A stretch of 25,154 nucleotides of DNA from a virus. Under the pieces are notes generated by a model, which did not search any database, had not been told where the DNA came from, and saw nothing but the letters and a program-made list of their open reading frames with translations. This document shows positions 1 through 21,557 of this stretch, one piece after another; the first letter of the stretch is position 1; the number at the start of each line of letters is the position of its first letter. The position numbers and the translations under genes are program-made. The DNA lies in IMG/VR virus record IMGVR_UViG_3300024348_002678, positions 1-25,154 of that record; one strand, given 5' to 3'.

Positions 1-93
1 TCAGAAGGACTCTTTCTAGCAAATGAACTAAGCAAGACATTAGATAAATTAAACAAGACTTACATATGGGAAAACATCAAGCTTCCTAAATAA
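1..93 (+). CDS. C-terminal end of a plus-strand gene (partial)
   Basis: An open frame enters from the left edge and runs 30 codons to a TAA at 91-93. The other two plus frames are closed by stops within this stretch. The residues are mixed charged and hydrophobic (ends ENIKLPK) and look like an ordinary C-terminus, but no family can be named. It would be the only plus-strand gene in the window, converging on the long minus-strand run. A hairpin followed by six T lies about 100 bases downstream at 194-215 and could terminate it. Confidence 0.5.
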   Translation, partial: SEGLFLANELSKTLDKLNKTYIWENIKLPK

Positions 94-146
94 TATATCT
101 GAACGAACAGATTGTATTAGATCTAAGTATTACTCAGATATGGCAA

Positions 147-173
147 ACATATACTTAGTTGGTTAGTATATGT
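147..173. repeat. Inverted repeat, 9-bp arms
   Basis: ACATATACT at 147-155 is matched by its perfect reverse complement AGTATATGT at 165-173, with a 9-base spacer. No T-run follows on the plus side, so an operator or origin element is likelier than a terminator. Confidence 0.6.
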
Positions 174-180
174 GCCCAAA

Positions 181-200
181 TTATCCACAGGTTATCCACA
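181..200 (+). promoter_or_regulatory. Two DnaA-box-like sequences
   Basis: TTATCCACA occurs at 181-189 and again at 192-200. This nonamer is the classical consensus DnaA box of many bacteria. Two perfect copies 11 bases apart, next to AT-rich DNA and repeats, suggest host DnaA binding. The second copy is also one arm of the palindrome at 194-210, so it could instead be simply part of a terminator stem. Confidence 0.45.
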
Positions 201-215
201 GCCTGTGGATTTTTT
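194..215 (+). terminator. Hairpin with T-run, likely plus-strand terminator
   Basis: ATCCACAG (194-201) pairs perfectly with CTGTGGAT (203-210) around a single central C; the true loop must open a few pairs. The stem runs into TTTTTT (210-215). This shape fits a rho-independent terminator for the gene ending at 93. It overlaps the second DnaA-box-like site. Confidence 0.45.
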
Positions 216-225
216 GTGTGTGGAC

Positions 226-274
226 ATGTGGGCAAAATTTCCTATTTACGACAGCATCTAAAAAATCCCTGAAA
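226..274. repeat. 49-bp direct repeat, copy 1
   Basis: Three conserved blocks are shared exactly with copy 2 at 382-430 in the same order and spacing: ATGTGGGCAAAAT (226-238), CTATTTACGA (242-251) and AAATCCCTGAAA (263-274). By hand count 40 of 49 positions match. The CTATTTACGA block carries a TATTTA hexamer that sits 16 bases after TGGACA (221-226), a weaker version of the promoter in copy 2. Confidence 0.8.
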
Positions 275-375
275 TTTGTAGAAATGTCGACAAATAGATA
301 TAGAATGATATAAAACATATATATAATCTAGCATAATATACCCAGAATTTGTCAGAATTTTATATGAAAAAATGC

Positions 376-404
376 TTGACAATGTGGGCAAAATATGCTA
401 TTTA
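376..404 (+). promoter_or_regulatory. Sigma70-like promoter, plus strand
   Basis: TTGACA (376-381), a 17-base spacer, then TATTTA (399-404). The -35 is perfect and the -10 moderate. The first conserved block of repeat copy 2 fills the spacer, so a protein bound there would block or control the promoter. No plus-strand gene follows, so an RNA or primer transcript is possible. Confidence 0.4.
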
Positions 405-430
405 CGAGGGCTATTGACAAATCCCTGAAA
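382..430. repeat. 49-bp direct repeat, copy 2
   Basis: Matches copy 1 with identical block order and spacing: blocks at 382-394, 398-407 and 419-430. Intervening bases differ, so the three blocks look like the selected elements, such as protein-binding sites on fixed helical faces. Confidence 0.8.
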
Positions 431-560
431 ATATGCCATGTGTCTATATGCTCAAATGGAGCAAATTGGACATTACGGGCATCTTATAAGGAAGCTCAAT
501 TACATAGATATAATTAACTATATATAACTATAGTAATTGTCGACTTATCTATAACCATTT

Positions 561-590
561 TACTCCACATTACTCCACTTTACTCCATAG
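561..590. repeat. Three 10-bp tandem repeats (TACTCCA)
   Basis: TACTCCACAT, TACTCCACTT and TACTCCATAG follow one another with no gap. A 10-base period puts the shared TACTCCA core on the same DNA face each turn, as in iteron-type or operator arrays. Confidence 0.6.
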
Positions 591-614
591 AAAAAGCCTT
601 CTAAGGGGGTTTTT
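591..614 (-). terminator. Possible terminator of the leftward operon
   Basis: On the minus strand, A5 and C5 are followed by a short CCTT/AAGG turn and a C plus T5 tract just after the last minus-strand gene. The stem is imperfect and the loop very tight, so the structural support is weak; position and T-run are the main arguments. Confidence 0.35.
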
Positions 615-639
615 AGACACTTTTAGAGGCGGGGGGATA

Positions 640-891
640 TTAGGATATAGCTCCATATCTGTCTGGATCAGCCAGTATCTCTTGGAGCAAGTTCTCTGGC
701 ATACTATGACCAGCTTTGGAATGAGCTTCCAGATGATCTCTTAATTGATCATCATTAGTTATATTGGTACTATTGGGAAATATACTTAAACCAGACTTAT
801 CTTTATTTAACCAGCATCCAGCACATGTAATATATCCTTCTGTACTTGGATATATGTATATATGGCTATCATAGAATCTGCTATATGCCAT
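640..891 (-). CDS. Small conserved phage-type protein with CxxC and histidines
   Basis: 83 residues. CAGC at 23-26 and two later histidines (HLEAHSKAGH, about 53-62) form a plausible zinc site; the HLEAH-KAGH stretch followed by a Pro and a D-rich end resembles small hypothetical proteins common in actinophages, as a recollection rather than a search. The start is supported by GAGGGCGGGAACCA just upstream. It is the last gene of the leftward run, 16 bases after the preceding gene. Function unknown. Confidence 0.8.
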   Translation of the reverse strand: MAYSRFYDSHIYIYPSTEGYITCAGCWLNKDKSGLSIFPNSTNITNDDQLRDHLEAHSKAGHSMPENLLQEILADPDRYGAIS

Positions 892-2979: not shown

Positions 2980-3079
2980 TCTTTGGATCCTTTTCCCATG
3001 TAAGCTTTCCATCTTTATATACAGGCCAATATCCTAATGAACGCCAATCCATACGCATAATCTTTGGTTCTTTACTCAC
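2972..3079 (-). CDS. Micro-protein (35 aa), GTG start
   Basis: Reads (V/M)SKEPKIMRMDW, then a Trp/Tyr-rich middle and KDPKND. GTG at 3079 makes a GTGA overlap with the stop of the helix-turn-helix gene upstream. A downstream ATG (residue 8) is an alternative start. The tight packing is the main support; function unknown. Confidence 0.45.
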   Translation of the reverse strand: MSKEPKIMRMDWRSLGYWPVYKDGKLTWEKDPKND

Positions 3080-3240
3080 ATCAATCTCCGCCAATTTCTG
3101 TAAATACGATATTCATCAAGCCATCTTATGATGGTTGCCTGTGTTACTTTGCAATCTTGAGCTATATCCTCTATGCTTCTTTCCTGAGCCACATATTGAT
3201 CACGTAGCCAGGCTTCATTCATATACCTAGGATTGCCCAT
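3076..3240 (-). CDS. Helix-turn-helix peptide (54 aa)
   Basis: Begins MGNPRYMNEAWLRDQY; the core SIEDIAQDCKVTQATIIRWL (about 22-41) is a clear homeodomain-like/resolvase-type helix-turn-helix, with IA as first helix and TIIRW as recognition helix. It is nearly all DNA-binding domain, so likely a small regulator or an adaptor. It resembles the peptide at 21411-21557 (14 identical residues in a 36-residue ungapped alignment made by eye). A good promoter lies immediately upstream. Confidence 0.8.
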   Translation of the reverse strand: MGNPRYMNEAWLRDQYVAQERSIEDIAQDCKVTQATIIRWLDEYRIYRNWRRLM

Positions 3241-6602: not shown

Positions 6603-6806
6603 TTAGTTTAGTTCTATTACTTTTACATGGTAAGAACACGGATCTCCGCCTTCATCCCATTCTTGTGCTTCTTCTTCTGTTAATGGTGGTCCGTCATGTG
6701 TATTACAAAATACATCTGATATCCAGCCTCTATCGTAACCATTTTTAAGCCATATTTCAAACTCTACATGGTTAGTGTAGGCTTCATCATATTCTAGATC
6801 ATCCAT
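6603..6806 (-). CDS. Small acidic conserved phage-type protein (67 aa)
   Basis: Contains CNTHDGPPLTEEEAQEWDEG (about 34-53) followed by DPCSYHVKVIEL. The CxTHDG-P-T-EEE ... DPC arrangement is familiar from many actinophage hypothetical proteins and could bind metal through C34, H36 and C57. It overlaps the thioredoxin gene by 13 bases and has GGAG upstream of its ATG. Function unknown. Confidence 0.8.
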   Translation of the reverse strand: MDDLEYDEAYTNHVEFEIWLKNGYDRGWISDVFCNTHDGPPLTEEEAQEWDEGGDPCSYHVKVIELN

Positions 6807-7099
6807 TCGGCCAACTCCTTTACTAAAACATGCTTAGGCTTTGCCCCAACAATCGTTTTAACTGGTTGACCAGACTTAAATAATACCATAGTTGGTATTG
6901 AATGTACAGAGTATTCCTGCATTTTTTTAGGATTCTCATCAACATTTAACTTACCAACGAGTAATCCAGTCTCATTTGATATCTCATCCAGGATCGGTGA
7001 AAGCTTTTTACAAGGCCCACACCATTCAGCCCAAAAATCAACCAAAACTAAATCATTTGTTGATACTACTTCACCAAAGGAATTATCTGTTACGATCAA
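6794..7099 (-). CDS. trxA: Thioredoxin
   Basis: 101 residues, full length for thioredoxin. The active site WCGPC is at 26-30, preceded by the VDFWAEW strand, and the cis-proline loop SIPTMVLF follows at about 67-74; GAKPKH replaces the usual G-x-x-x-K near the end. It reduces disulfides in the cytoplasm; phage thioredoxins may serve ribonucleotide reduction or act as polymerase processivity factors, but neither partner is in this window. The start is TTG at 7099, with AAAGGATAAG upstream; no in-frame ATG would keep the N-terminal strand. Confidence 0.95.
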   Translation of the reverse strand: MIVTDNSFGEVVSTNDLVLVDFWAEWCGPCKKLSPILDEISNETGLLVGKLNVDENPKKMQEYSVHSIPTMVLFKSGQPVKTIVGAKPKHVLVKELAEWMI

Positions 7100-14448: not shown

Positions 14449-14868
14449 CTATTTGATCTTAATGATCTTTGGCTTCTTTTCTTCTGGAATAATTCTATCT
14501 ACATTGATATTTAACATTCCATCTTCGATTGAAGCTCCAGTTACTTCCATATATTCACCTAGCCCAAATGTTCTAGTGAACTTACGTGCAGCAATACCTT
14601 TATGTAGATATTCACCGTCTGTAACTTCTGTGATTTCACCCTTAACAATAAGTGTTCCGTTATCTACTGAAACATCAATATCGCTTCTTGTGAATCCTGC
14701 TACTGCAATTGATACCTGATATGTATCTTCGTCTAGCTTTAATACATCGTATGGTGGATATGTTTGGCGTGTTGCAGCCTGATGAACATGTGCCATTCTT
14801 TCCATTTCACGATTAAAACCAATAAAAAAAGGATCTCTAAAAAGATCCAGGGTTAGTGCGTTTACCAT
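14449..14868 (-). CDS. hsp20: Hsp20/alpha-crystallin small heat-shock protein
   Basis: 139 residues, usual for bacterial Hsp20. The N-terminal FNREMERMAHV region precedes an alpha-crystallin domain (about 40-125) with YQVSIAVAGFTRSDIDVSV, DNGTLIVKGE and the ISFxR-like ARKFTRTFGLGE; the end IPEEKKPKIIKIK holds an I-x-I oligomerisation motif. It is an ATP-independent holdase that would protect folding intermediates in the infected cell. AAAAGGAGC precedes the ATG; a TATAAT box 55 bases upstream gives a longer leader than most genes here. Confidence 0.93.
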   Translation of the reverse strand: MVNALTLDLFRDPFFIGFNREMERMAHVHQAATRQTYPPYDVLKLDEDTYQVSIAVAGFTRSDIDVSVDNGTLIVKGEITEVTDGEYLHKGIAARKFTRTFGLGEYMEVTGASIEDGMLNINVDRIIPEEKKPKIIKIK

Positions 14869-16742: not shown

Positions 16743-17186
16743 TTAGTTTACTGATGTCTTTAATGAGGCTGACAATTGCCATGACCAGAACTGATGTTTA
16801 TCAATTCTTTCTGCAAAAAAGTTTGCAAGGCCTTGTTCATTTAAAGAGTTTGCCATAGCAAACCCATCTTTTAAGTCATTTATAATTTGTGAATTTGAAT
16901 CAAATAAATTTCTCATCATCTCTAGTGGTGAGTTTGTTGGAAAATCATACTTTATATTTGAATTTTGCAAGATCTCGTCAATCTGAAAAACAGCTGGTGA
17001 ATTAAGTTTTCTTGACCATTCAGCATAAGTATCAATTGATTCAAATACATCTTCGTATATTTCCTTAAAGAATGCGTGAAGTTCTTTAAATAGAACCCCC
17101 TCTACATTCCAGTGATAACCGTGTGCTTTTGTATAAAATACAAAAGAACTAGATTGTAGTTGTCTTATCTTAGAAATAATATCCAT
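16743..17186 (-). CDS. dps: Dps-like ferritin (DNA-protecting iron storage)
   Basis: 147 residues from MDIISKIRQL. The four Dps ferroxidase ligands are present with the correct spacing: His25 (YHWNVEG), His37 (ELHAFF), Asp52 and Glu56 (SIDTYAEW). Dps dodecamers oxidise and store iron using peroxide and can coat DNA. The frame is open to 17225, but that extension runs into tRNA-Gln; ATG 17186 lies six bases after TATACT and is clearly better. It could shield phage or host DNA from oxidative damage during infection. Confidence 0.88.
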   Translation of the reverse strand: MDIISKIRQLQSSSFVFYTKAHGYHWNVEGVLFKELHAFFKEIYEDVFESIDTYAEWSRKLNSPAVFQIDEILQNSNIKYDFPTNSPLEMMRNLFDSNSQIINDLKDGFAMANSLNEQGLANFFAERIDKHQFWSWQLSASLKTSVN

Positions 17187-17192
17187 GTTAAT

Positions 17193-17198
17193 AGTATA
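17193..17198 (-). promoter_or_regulatory. TATACT -10 box, leaderless start of dps
   Basis: TATACT preceded by TGG ends six bases before ATG 17186. No good -35; the tRNA-Gln gene occupies the region just upstream. Confidence 0.5.
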
Positions 17199-17214
17199 CC
17201 ATTTCCTTTCTTTG

Positions 17215-17285
17215 CTTCTCACCATGGATTCGAACCACGATTCTCGCCTCCAAAGGGCGATGTCCTGCCGTTGGACGAGTGAGAA
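17215..17285 (-). tRNA. tRNA-Gln (TTG)
   Basis: Acceptor TTCTCAC pairs fully with GTGAGAA; anticodon stem TCGCC/GGCGA encloses CTTTGGA with anticodon TTG; T-loop GGTTCGAATCC. U1 is typical of tRNA-Gln and G73 fits. No encoded CCA. Reads CAA codons, abundant in this AT-rich genome. Confidence 0.9.
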
Positions 17286-20868: not shown

Positions 20869-21414
20869 TTACCTCTTATTAAATGTTGCAATAAAATGAT
20901 CGTCAATAGGATTATTGGGATCTTTTGAATACTCTATGGTATCTATTGTAAAATATTTTTCAACAATTGGCAATACCTGTGATGCAGAATGATCAATCCA
21001 AGTTCTGCTATGTAGCACCAATCTGTCCGCTATTTGAGACAAATCAGTTAAATATGAATTAAGCTCTGAATCCTCTATATGCTGAAATACAAGGCTTGCT
21101 AATACCATATCAAACTTAAAAGACTTTACATACTCCCAGTCAGTTGTGTATGCTATATTGCTTAGCTTGTTATCTTCTGGTACTAAGCCTATCATGCTTG
21201 GCAAGTCAAAAGAAATAACCTTGTCGTATGTATCTGATAAGGCTACAGAGTTTCTTCCTACTCCACACCCAAAATCTAATGCTGTTGATCCGTGCCCGAA
21301 TAAAGATCTTACCTCATCATACACAGGCATATCTCTTAAAGGGCCATGATACCCAGTAAGTATAAGATCTCCAGCTGTTTCTTGATTGGCGTTTAGCCAT
21401 ACGTCTTTGCTCAT
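20869..21414 (-). CDS. Class I SAM-dependent methyltransferase
   Basis: 181 residues. Motif I ALDFGCGVGRN (45-55), the acidic end of strand 2 ISFDLPS (about 68-74), and the FDMVLASLVFQHIED stretch (about 100-114) define the fold. It lacks an NPPY or DPPY motif, so it is more like a small-molecule, lipid or protein methyltransferase than a DNA adenine/cytosine-N4 enzyme. The ATG overlaps the previous stop (ATGA). Substrate unknown. Confidence 0.88.
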   Translation of the reverse strand: MSKDVWLNANQETAGDLILTGYHGPLRDMPVYDEVRSLFGHGSTALDFGCGVGRNSVALSDTYDKVISFDLPSMIGLVPEDNKLSNIAYTTDWEYVKSFKFDMVLASLVFQHIEDSELNSYLTDLSQIADRLVLHSRTWIDHSASQVLPIVEKYFTIDTIEYSKDPNNPIDDHFIATFNKR

Positions 21415-21557
21415 CTTTTTTTAATCAGTCCAAACTTTTCTAAGTATCTCTGTATAGTCATAGCAGAAACTTTACACTCTTCGGCAATCTCTACAATTGT
21501 TTTCTTTTGTACAGAGTACCTTCTAAACAACCAGTCTTTATTTTGATATAACTTCAT
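21411..21557 (-). CDS. Helix-turn-helix peptide (48 aa)
   Basis: Starts MKLYQNKDWLFRRYSVQ; the core TIVEIAEECKVSAMTIQRYL (about 20-39) is a homeodomain-like helix-turn-helix. The protein is little more than this domain. Four-base overlaps with both neighbours (RuvC-like gene and methyltransferase) support translation. A likely paralog of the peptide at 3076-3240. A regulator or DNA-binding adaptor. Confidence 0.78.
   Translation of the reverse strand: MKLYQNKDWLFRRYSVQKKTIVEIAEECKVSAMTIQRYLEKFGLIKKR

Follow-up and report, generated by a model that had tools for sequence, protein, structure and literature searches.

The window, that is, the whole stretch of 25,154 nucleotides analysed here, is a virus fragment of 25 kb. 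Its genes include one for a WhiB protein and one for a terminase with 58–64% identity to those of Streptomyces phages of Stanwilliamsviridae, suggesting that the host is likely actinobacterial. A 71.6-kb contig (L106) matched window positions 1–660 at 100% identity and continues leftward. Two gene arms, a short one on the + strand and a long one on the − strand, converge near the left end of the window, where the following features were found.

1–93, + strand: 3′ end of the short arm's final gene, whose start lies left of the window and was read in the 71.6-kb relative
183–216, + strand: hairpin and T-run, the intrinsic terminator of the upstream + strand gene, containing DnaA-box-like TTATCCACA letters
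230–251, + strand: block 1 of copy 1, GGGCAAAATTTCCTATTTACGA (22-bp core), found by degenerate-pattern search and position matrix
263–274, + strand: block 3 of copy 1, AAATCCCTGAAA, in which the AAT sits on the ladder described below
273–358, + strand: helically phased AAT array, with AAT at 273, 283, 293, 304, 325, 335, 346 and 356
376–404, + strand: promoter-like TTGACA-17-TATTTA over copy 2; TTGACA is conserved in close relatives, the second hexamer is not
386–407, + strand: block 1 of copy 2, GGGCAAAATATGCTATTTACGA, found by degenerate-pattern search and position matrix
414–442, + strand: promoter-like TTGACA-17-CATGTG in copy 2, with the −35 at 6 nt past block 1, as in the mini-Lsr2 promoter described below, and a poor −10
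419–430, + strand: block 3 of copy 2, AAATCCCTGAAA, an exact match between the copies, also found by position matrix
561–586, + strand: three ACTCCA repeats in exact 10-bp steps, conserved in most relatives
629–640, + strand: G-rich block GGCGGGGGGATA, just past the minus-strand stop codon and retained by almost all relatives
640–891, − strand: final gene (83 aa) of the long arm, running towards the element region

As the original prediction held, the region is free of genes, since the + strand gene stops at 93 and the first − strand gene is reached at 640. Further along the long arm, the N-terminal 110 residues encoded by 1040–1804 (− strand) resemble a domain within capsid protease/portal genes of several marine phages, and PHROG matches on the minus strand were to a thioredoxin (6794–7099), an Hsp20 (14449–14868) and a DNA-binding protein that is Dps-like by eye (16743–17225).

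The two copies of the element (226–274 and 382–430; 49 nt each) lie in this convergent intergenic region just past the terminator, with a start-to-start distance of 156 nt, and were identical at 40/49 positions in an ungapped alignment. By comparison, when 2.5 kb was dinucleotide-shuffled 100 times, no 49-nt pair agreed at more than 30/49 positions, and when the whole 25 kb was shuffled 12 times, none exceeded 35/49. The first two blocks, written as a degenerate pattern, matched at precisely two places in the window, and 100 shuffles gave no match. The duplication with three exact blocks was therefore real and placed as first described, above all shuffles. Its three-block picture was refined in two ways: the stretch from GGGC to TTTACG forms a single rigid block of 22 bp, and block 3 begins a longer periodic array, of which it is the first rung and which the first reading had missed. 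The proposed overlap of the blocks with promoter hexamers was also seen, TTGACA at 376 and TATTTA at 399 lying over copy 2 with a 17-nt spacer, and a second TTGACA, at 414 within copy 2, had been overlooked. In copy 1, no convincing promoter was found at standard distances, the best candidate being TCGACA-16-TATAAA at 287. The blocks look like protein-binding sites, as had been supposed, and are treated here as putative ones. Note that a small ORF over the copies (MWAK..IY in one frame) was dropped on inspection, because core and block 3 are 9 to 12 nt apart depending on the copy, the stop codons are not the same, and no start is present in the copy ahead of the mini-Lsr2 gene.

A dyad at 183–210 followed by a T-run stands directly before copy 1. 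In distant relatives, the DnaA-box-like letters are replaced (e.g., GGACATAT...ATATGTCC), while the G+C-rich hairpin and the T-run are retained; because the structure is kept as the sequence changes, 183–216 was read as an intrinsic terminator and not as DnaA boxes. This bears on a replication origin, one of the functions originally suggested, which would comprise iterons, an A+T-rich stretch, DnaA boxes and a promoter. A single gene-free region does combine repeats, A+T richness and curvature, and a wedge model predicts the strongest curvature in the window for the 105 bp at 316–421; the TTATCCACA letters at 181–203 and the three ACTCCA repeats would also suit such a site. However, the GC-skew check proposed for a replication start placed the site, where the two arms converge, at or near the maximum of cumulative skew in two 110-kb relatives, with the minimum elsewhere, although skew can follow gene direction. 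Together with the replaced DnaA-box-like letters and the recurrence of the module at ordinary promoters (see below), this makes an origin improbable. Nothing was found in favour of an RNA-primer promoter. As regards the ACTCCA repeats, some distant relatives have TGGAG repeats of the opposite sense, lying nearer to copy 2.

Related phages were searched for further copies, as had been proposed. The module consists of the 22-bp core GGGCNAANNTNNYNNTTTACGR, a gap of 9–12 nt, and then AATCCCTGAAA. Scanning with a position matrix for core plus block 3, in which GGGC and TTTACG were nearly invariant, recovered 230 distinct copies in 108 related loci, instances that are related by descent and do not count as independent events even with similar ones removed. 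None of the 108 loci had copies on both strands. Copies were kept at the same place in ~14 relatives, and 35 of 50 related contigs had at least one core match with ≤2 mismatches, a count in which some weak single matches may be due to chance, as the reversed control also gave a few. The element is thus kept in related phages and is not a chance repeat. In the longest contigs, strong module matches were all in one arm and on one strand, and all copies inspected lay in the short arm, oriented with transcription. The short arm probably carries the early genes, a label that was drawn from gene content (DUF932, DUF7455 and DUF1281-type genes), direction, and opposition to the structural arm.

Gilson, BillNye, Wakanda, Yaboi, Trina and DSL-LC01 gave no match with 0–1 mismatches and no good match. 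An element common to Stanwilliamsviridae and its neighbours was therefore ruled out, and the module, as judged from these six named relatives, belongs to an environmental phage group and not to the whole family. The exact full pattern occurred in 79 of 2.9 million viral contigs versus one 3.7-kb contig among 84,980 prokaryote genomes. A host transcription factor with its own regulon was rejected because of this essential absence from prokaryote genomes, and the recogniser would probably be phage-specific. The single exception (L195), with two full modules, comes from the bin of a Paceibacterota MAG, where it is probably misassigned phage DNA.

We also examined where promoters lie relative to the core. 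Among promoters with clear hexamers, the −35 started mostly 4–6 or 26–28 nt past the core, ~two helical turns apart, and the same peaks dominated among strong promoters, whereas shuffles were flat (5.8 strong promoters expected per 164 sequences, evenly spread). These preferred distances, ~21 bp apart, suggest that RNA polymerase is contacted on one face of the helix. In several relatives, upstream of copy 1 by ~0.9 kb, or by 0.77 kb in the window's twin, a further module copy stands in front of a gene for a 48-aa protein, mini-Lsr2, which has an Lsr2-like PHROG match (E 2.5e-8; Pfam below cut-off) and is conserved in relatives. In L106, left of the window start, this stand-alone Lsr2-like DNA-binding domain gene is found at about −450 to −304 in window numbering, under a third module copy. 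It is possible that mini-Lsr2 is a competitor of host Lsr2. The mini-Lsr2 promoters were near-perfect TTTACA-17-TATAAT or close to it in 28/28 non-redundant examples, with −35 offsets of 5–6 in 19/28, 26–28 in 7/28, and 31 and 33 in the other two; in some relatives, the module sits 21 bp further from this promoter. First-early-gene promoters had their −35 at offset 26–27, as did another early promoter type with TTGTAA or TTGACA and TGTCAGTG in the spacer. At the mini-Lsr2 and first-early-gene promoters, the module thus keeps the fixed distance to −35/−10 expected of a site linked to sigma-70 promoters. Judged from its constant orientation, its restriction to one arm and these promoter distances, the module has a predicted role in transcription regulation.

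No gene lies between copy 2 and the convergent arm on the downstream side. The copies might be promoters of one or two small noncoding RNAs that end at a hairpin near 592–607. The terminator before and the hairpin after them, the conserved TTGACA in copy 2, and a single-sequence fold of 440–640 that beats shuffles (z −2.9) speak for such RNAs, but the −10 hexamer is poor, no Rfam match was found, and the consensus fold of 17 relatives reached −0.2 kcal/mol with one compensated pair. A structured, conserved RNA was rejected, as the good single-sequence z-scores were lost on alignment and no covarying fold emerged. A short unstructured RNA is compatible with the noncoding RNA explanation, to which we give a slim chance as a whole.

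The DNA between copies 1 and 2 has an AAT every 10.5 bp over 8–10 turns, on one strand and in register with copy 1. Compared with dinucleotide shuffles, AAT autocorrelation at lags 10, 11 and 21 had z values of 19, 13 and 24, respectively, and pairwise rung distances peaked at 10–11, 21, 31–32, 42, 52–53, 63 and 73. Counted from copy 1, the rungs lie at 55, 65, 75–76, 86, 97, 107, 117–118 and 128, and the AAT of block 3, at 34, belongs to the same ladder. The rung is RAATNT-like with weak C enrichment at +7/+8, and the array is directional, since AAT is 2.2 times as frequent in it as ATT. Chains of 7–10 rungs were typical between the copies, compared with mostly 2 in the null; elsewhere in the window no AAT chain exceeded 4 rungs, and other modules were without a ladder. 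In 2.1 Mb of fetched DNA, 73 of the 75 ladders with at least 7 rungs were at the module site, to which the ladder is almost unique, many of these being the same locus fetched repeatedly. G+C also oscillates at lags 10 and 21 in the array, and part of the phased-AAT signal could stem from the intrinsic curvature of the DNA and not from a filament.

The distance between copies 1 and 2 was also periodic, falling into classes near 122, 133, 145, 157, 168 and 179 bp. The period was 11.35 bp (bootstrap 11.05–11.60; R 0.73) in 35 non-redundant pairs, and in a comparable quantisation test 0/2000 uniform nulls reached the observed spacing signal. Such helically quantised spacing is that of a looping operator pair, and the operator pair named in the original prediction fits in this respect. 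Note that this period differs from that of the ladder (10.5–10.6 bp). Since both the ladder and the quantised copy spacing are present, several protein molecules probably assemble in fixed geometry at the locus.

In partition sites, a promoter is typically flanked by direct repeats of roughly one helical turn, a layout that would fit a centromere-like site of the parC/tubC type whose iterons are recognised by a ParR/TubR-like protein. However, the families searched included no partition gene, and the core alone recurs at early promoters, making this explanation very unlikely. The best rival was the E. coli gyrase motif, in which two periodic 47-bp flanks surround a 36-bp cleavage centre (PMC6379681), and it was ranked so because of the convergent position of the site. 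The phased A/T array would wrap DNA on gyrase and relieve positive supercoils between the convergent arms, like the central site of phage Mu for replication. The 10.75-bp composition periodicity of the two flanking regions (PMC6379681) resembles the ~10.5-bp periodicity over ~100 bp seen here, in which G+C takes part. However, the array is continuous, without the 36-bp central break, and strand-asymmetric (AAT not ATT), and it is tied to a specific, promoter-linked 22-bp core that is also found alone at promoters without an array. A strong gyrase site is given a low probability, but is kept as a competing explanation.

We next compared the locus with known regulatory systems. Actinophage stoperator/operator families (e.g., that of L5) are phage-specific asymmetric sites with constant orientation relative to transcription. 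Compared by description, the module shares these properties; on the other hand, it is a much longer bipartite site with preferred −35 distances, few copies in one arm and no known repressor. Looping operator pairs (lac, gal and ara) are alike in having two equal sites, here 122–187 bp apart, with quantised spacing and probably bent DNA in between, whereas the sites here are direct repeats and the intervening DNA carries its own periodic array. Looping is compatible with the copy-spacing period, but the match is not exact, 11.35 bp being longer than the ~10.9 bp of the lac loop in vivo (PMC1831498). Most alike in its working may be BldC of Streptomyces, which binds direct repeats head to tail (PMC5859096), and the likeness extends to directional AT-type direct repeats ~one turn apart, their variable number, DNA bending and the actinobacterial setting (PMC5859096). 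However, the BldC protomer consensus is AATTNNNN(C), whereas here a RAATNT rung recurs at a 10.5-bp period and the array is preceded by a separate 22-bp core. Furthermore, the phages had no BldC homologue above cut-off, their small helix-turn-helix ORFs falling under the MerR_1 and HTH_17 cut-offs. Because the repeat sequence differs and a homologue above cut-off is lacking, we did not class the element as BldC-type.

When short-arm proteins were scanned against Pfam and PHROG, mini-Lsr2 was the one clear DNA-binding protein. HTH_17 searches returned only sub-threshold matches, in 160–168-aa ORFs, and MerR_1 searches only sub-threshold matches, in very small ORFs. Weak MerR_1-type matches in small ORFs occurred in 16/16 contigs searched. 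On the minus strand of the window, two very small helix-turn-helix ORFs (48 and 54 aa) are located at 21411–21557 and 3076–3240.

Set beside the features seen directly by comparative sequence analysis (the motif and its distribution, orientation, promoter distances, ladder and quantised spacing), the explanation we favour, at about an even chance, is that a phage-specific transcription regulator uses the element as its cis-regulatory module, acting at early promoters and, at this locus, nucleating an array between cooperating sites. Points against it are the lack of a convincing promoter at copy 1, the poor −10 and missing downstream gene at copy 2, and the difference between the copy-spacing and ladder periods. 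The working unit would be the 22-bp core with a short AAT-type block one turn downstream, placed at several short-arm promoters. In the terminal intergenic region, two to three such modules stand just behind the short-arm terminator, with an array of RAATNT-like half-sites, one per helical turn, between the outer and inner modules and in register with block 1. A protein, presumably phage-encoded, would bind block 1, and further subunits would align head to tail along the AAT rungs. Proteins at copies 1 and 2 would then cooperate, with the intervening DNA bent and a filament or loop formed, either setting the activity of the copy 2 promoter(s), presumably by activation rather than repression, or insulating the convergent arms. 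A more specific version is tentative and, in our view, rather doubtful: the phage-encoded regulator would nucleate at the core and polymerise one way along the AAT ladder, and the 100-bp filament between two cores would act either as a switch or as a boundary where the early and late arms converge.

The viral metagenome collection contains many contigs of this phage group, and the literature we searched contained nothing on how the group times its gene expression. The module appears to be a control site before early genes in a group of freshwater actinobacterial phages, and may serve as a signature for the early promoters of the group. Furthermore, the one-per-turn ladder, in register with a specific core, offers an unusually clear example of a directional protein array that seems to be specified by the DNA sequence itself.
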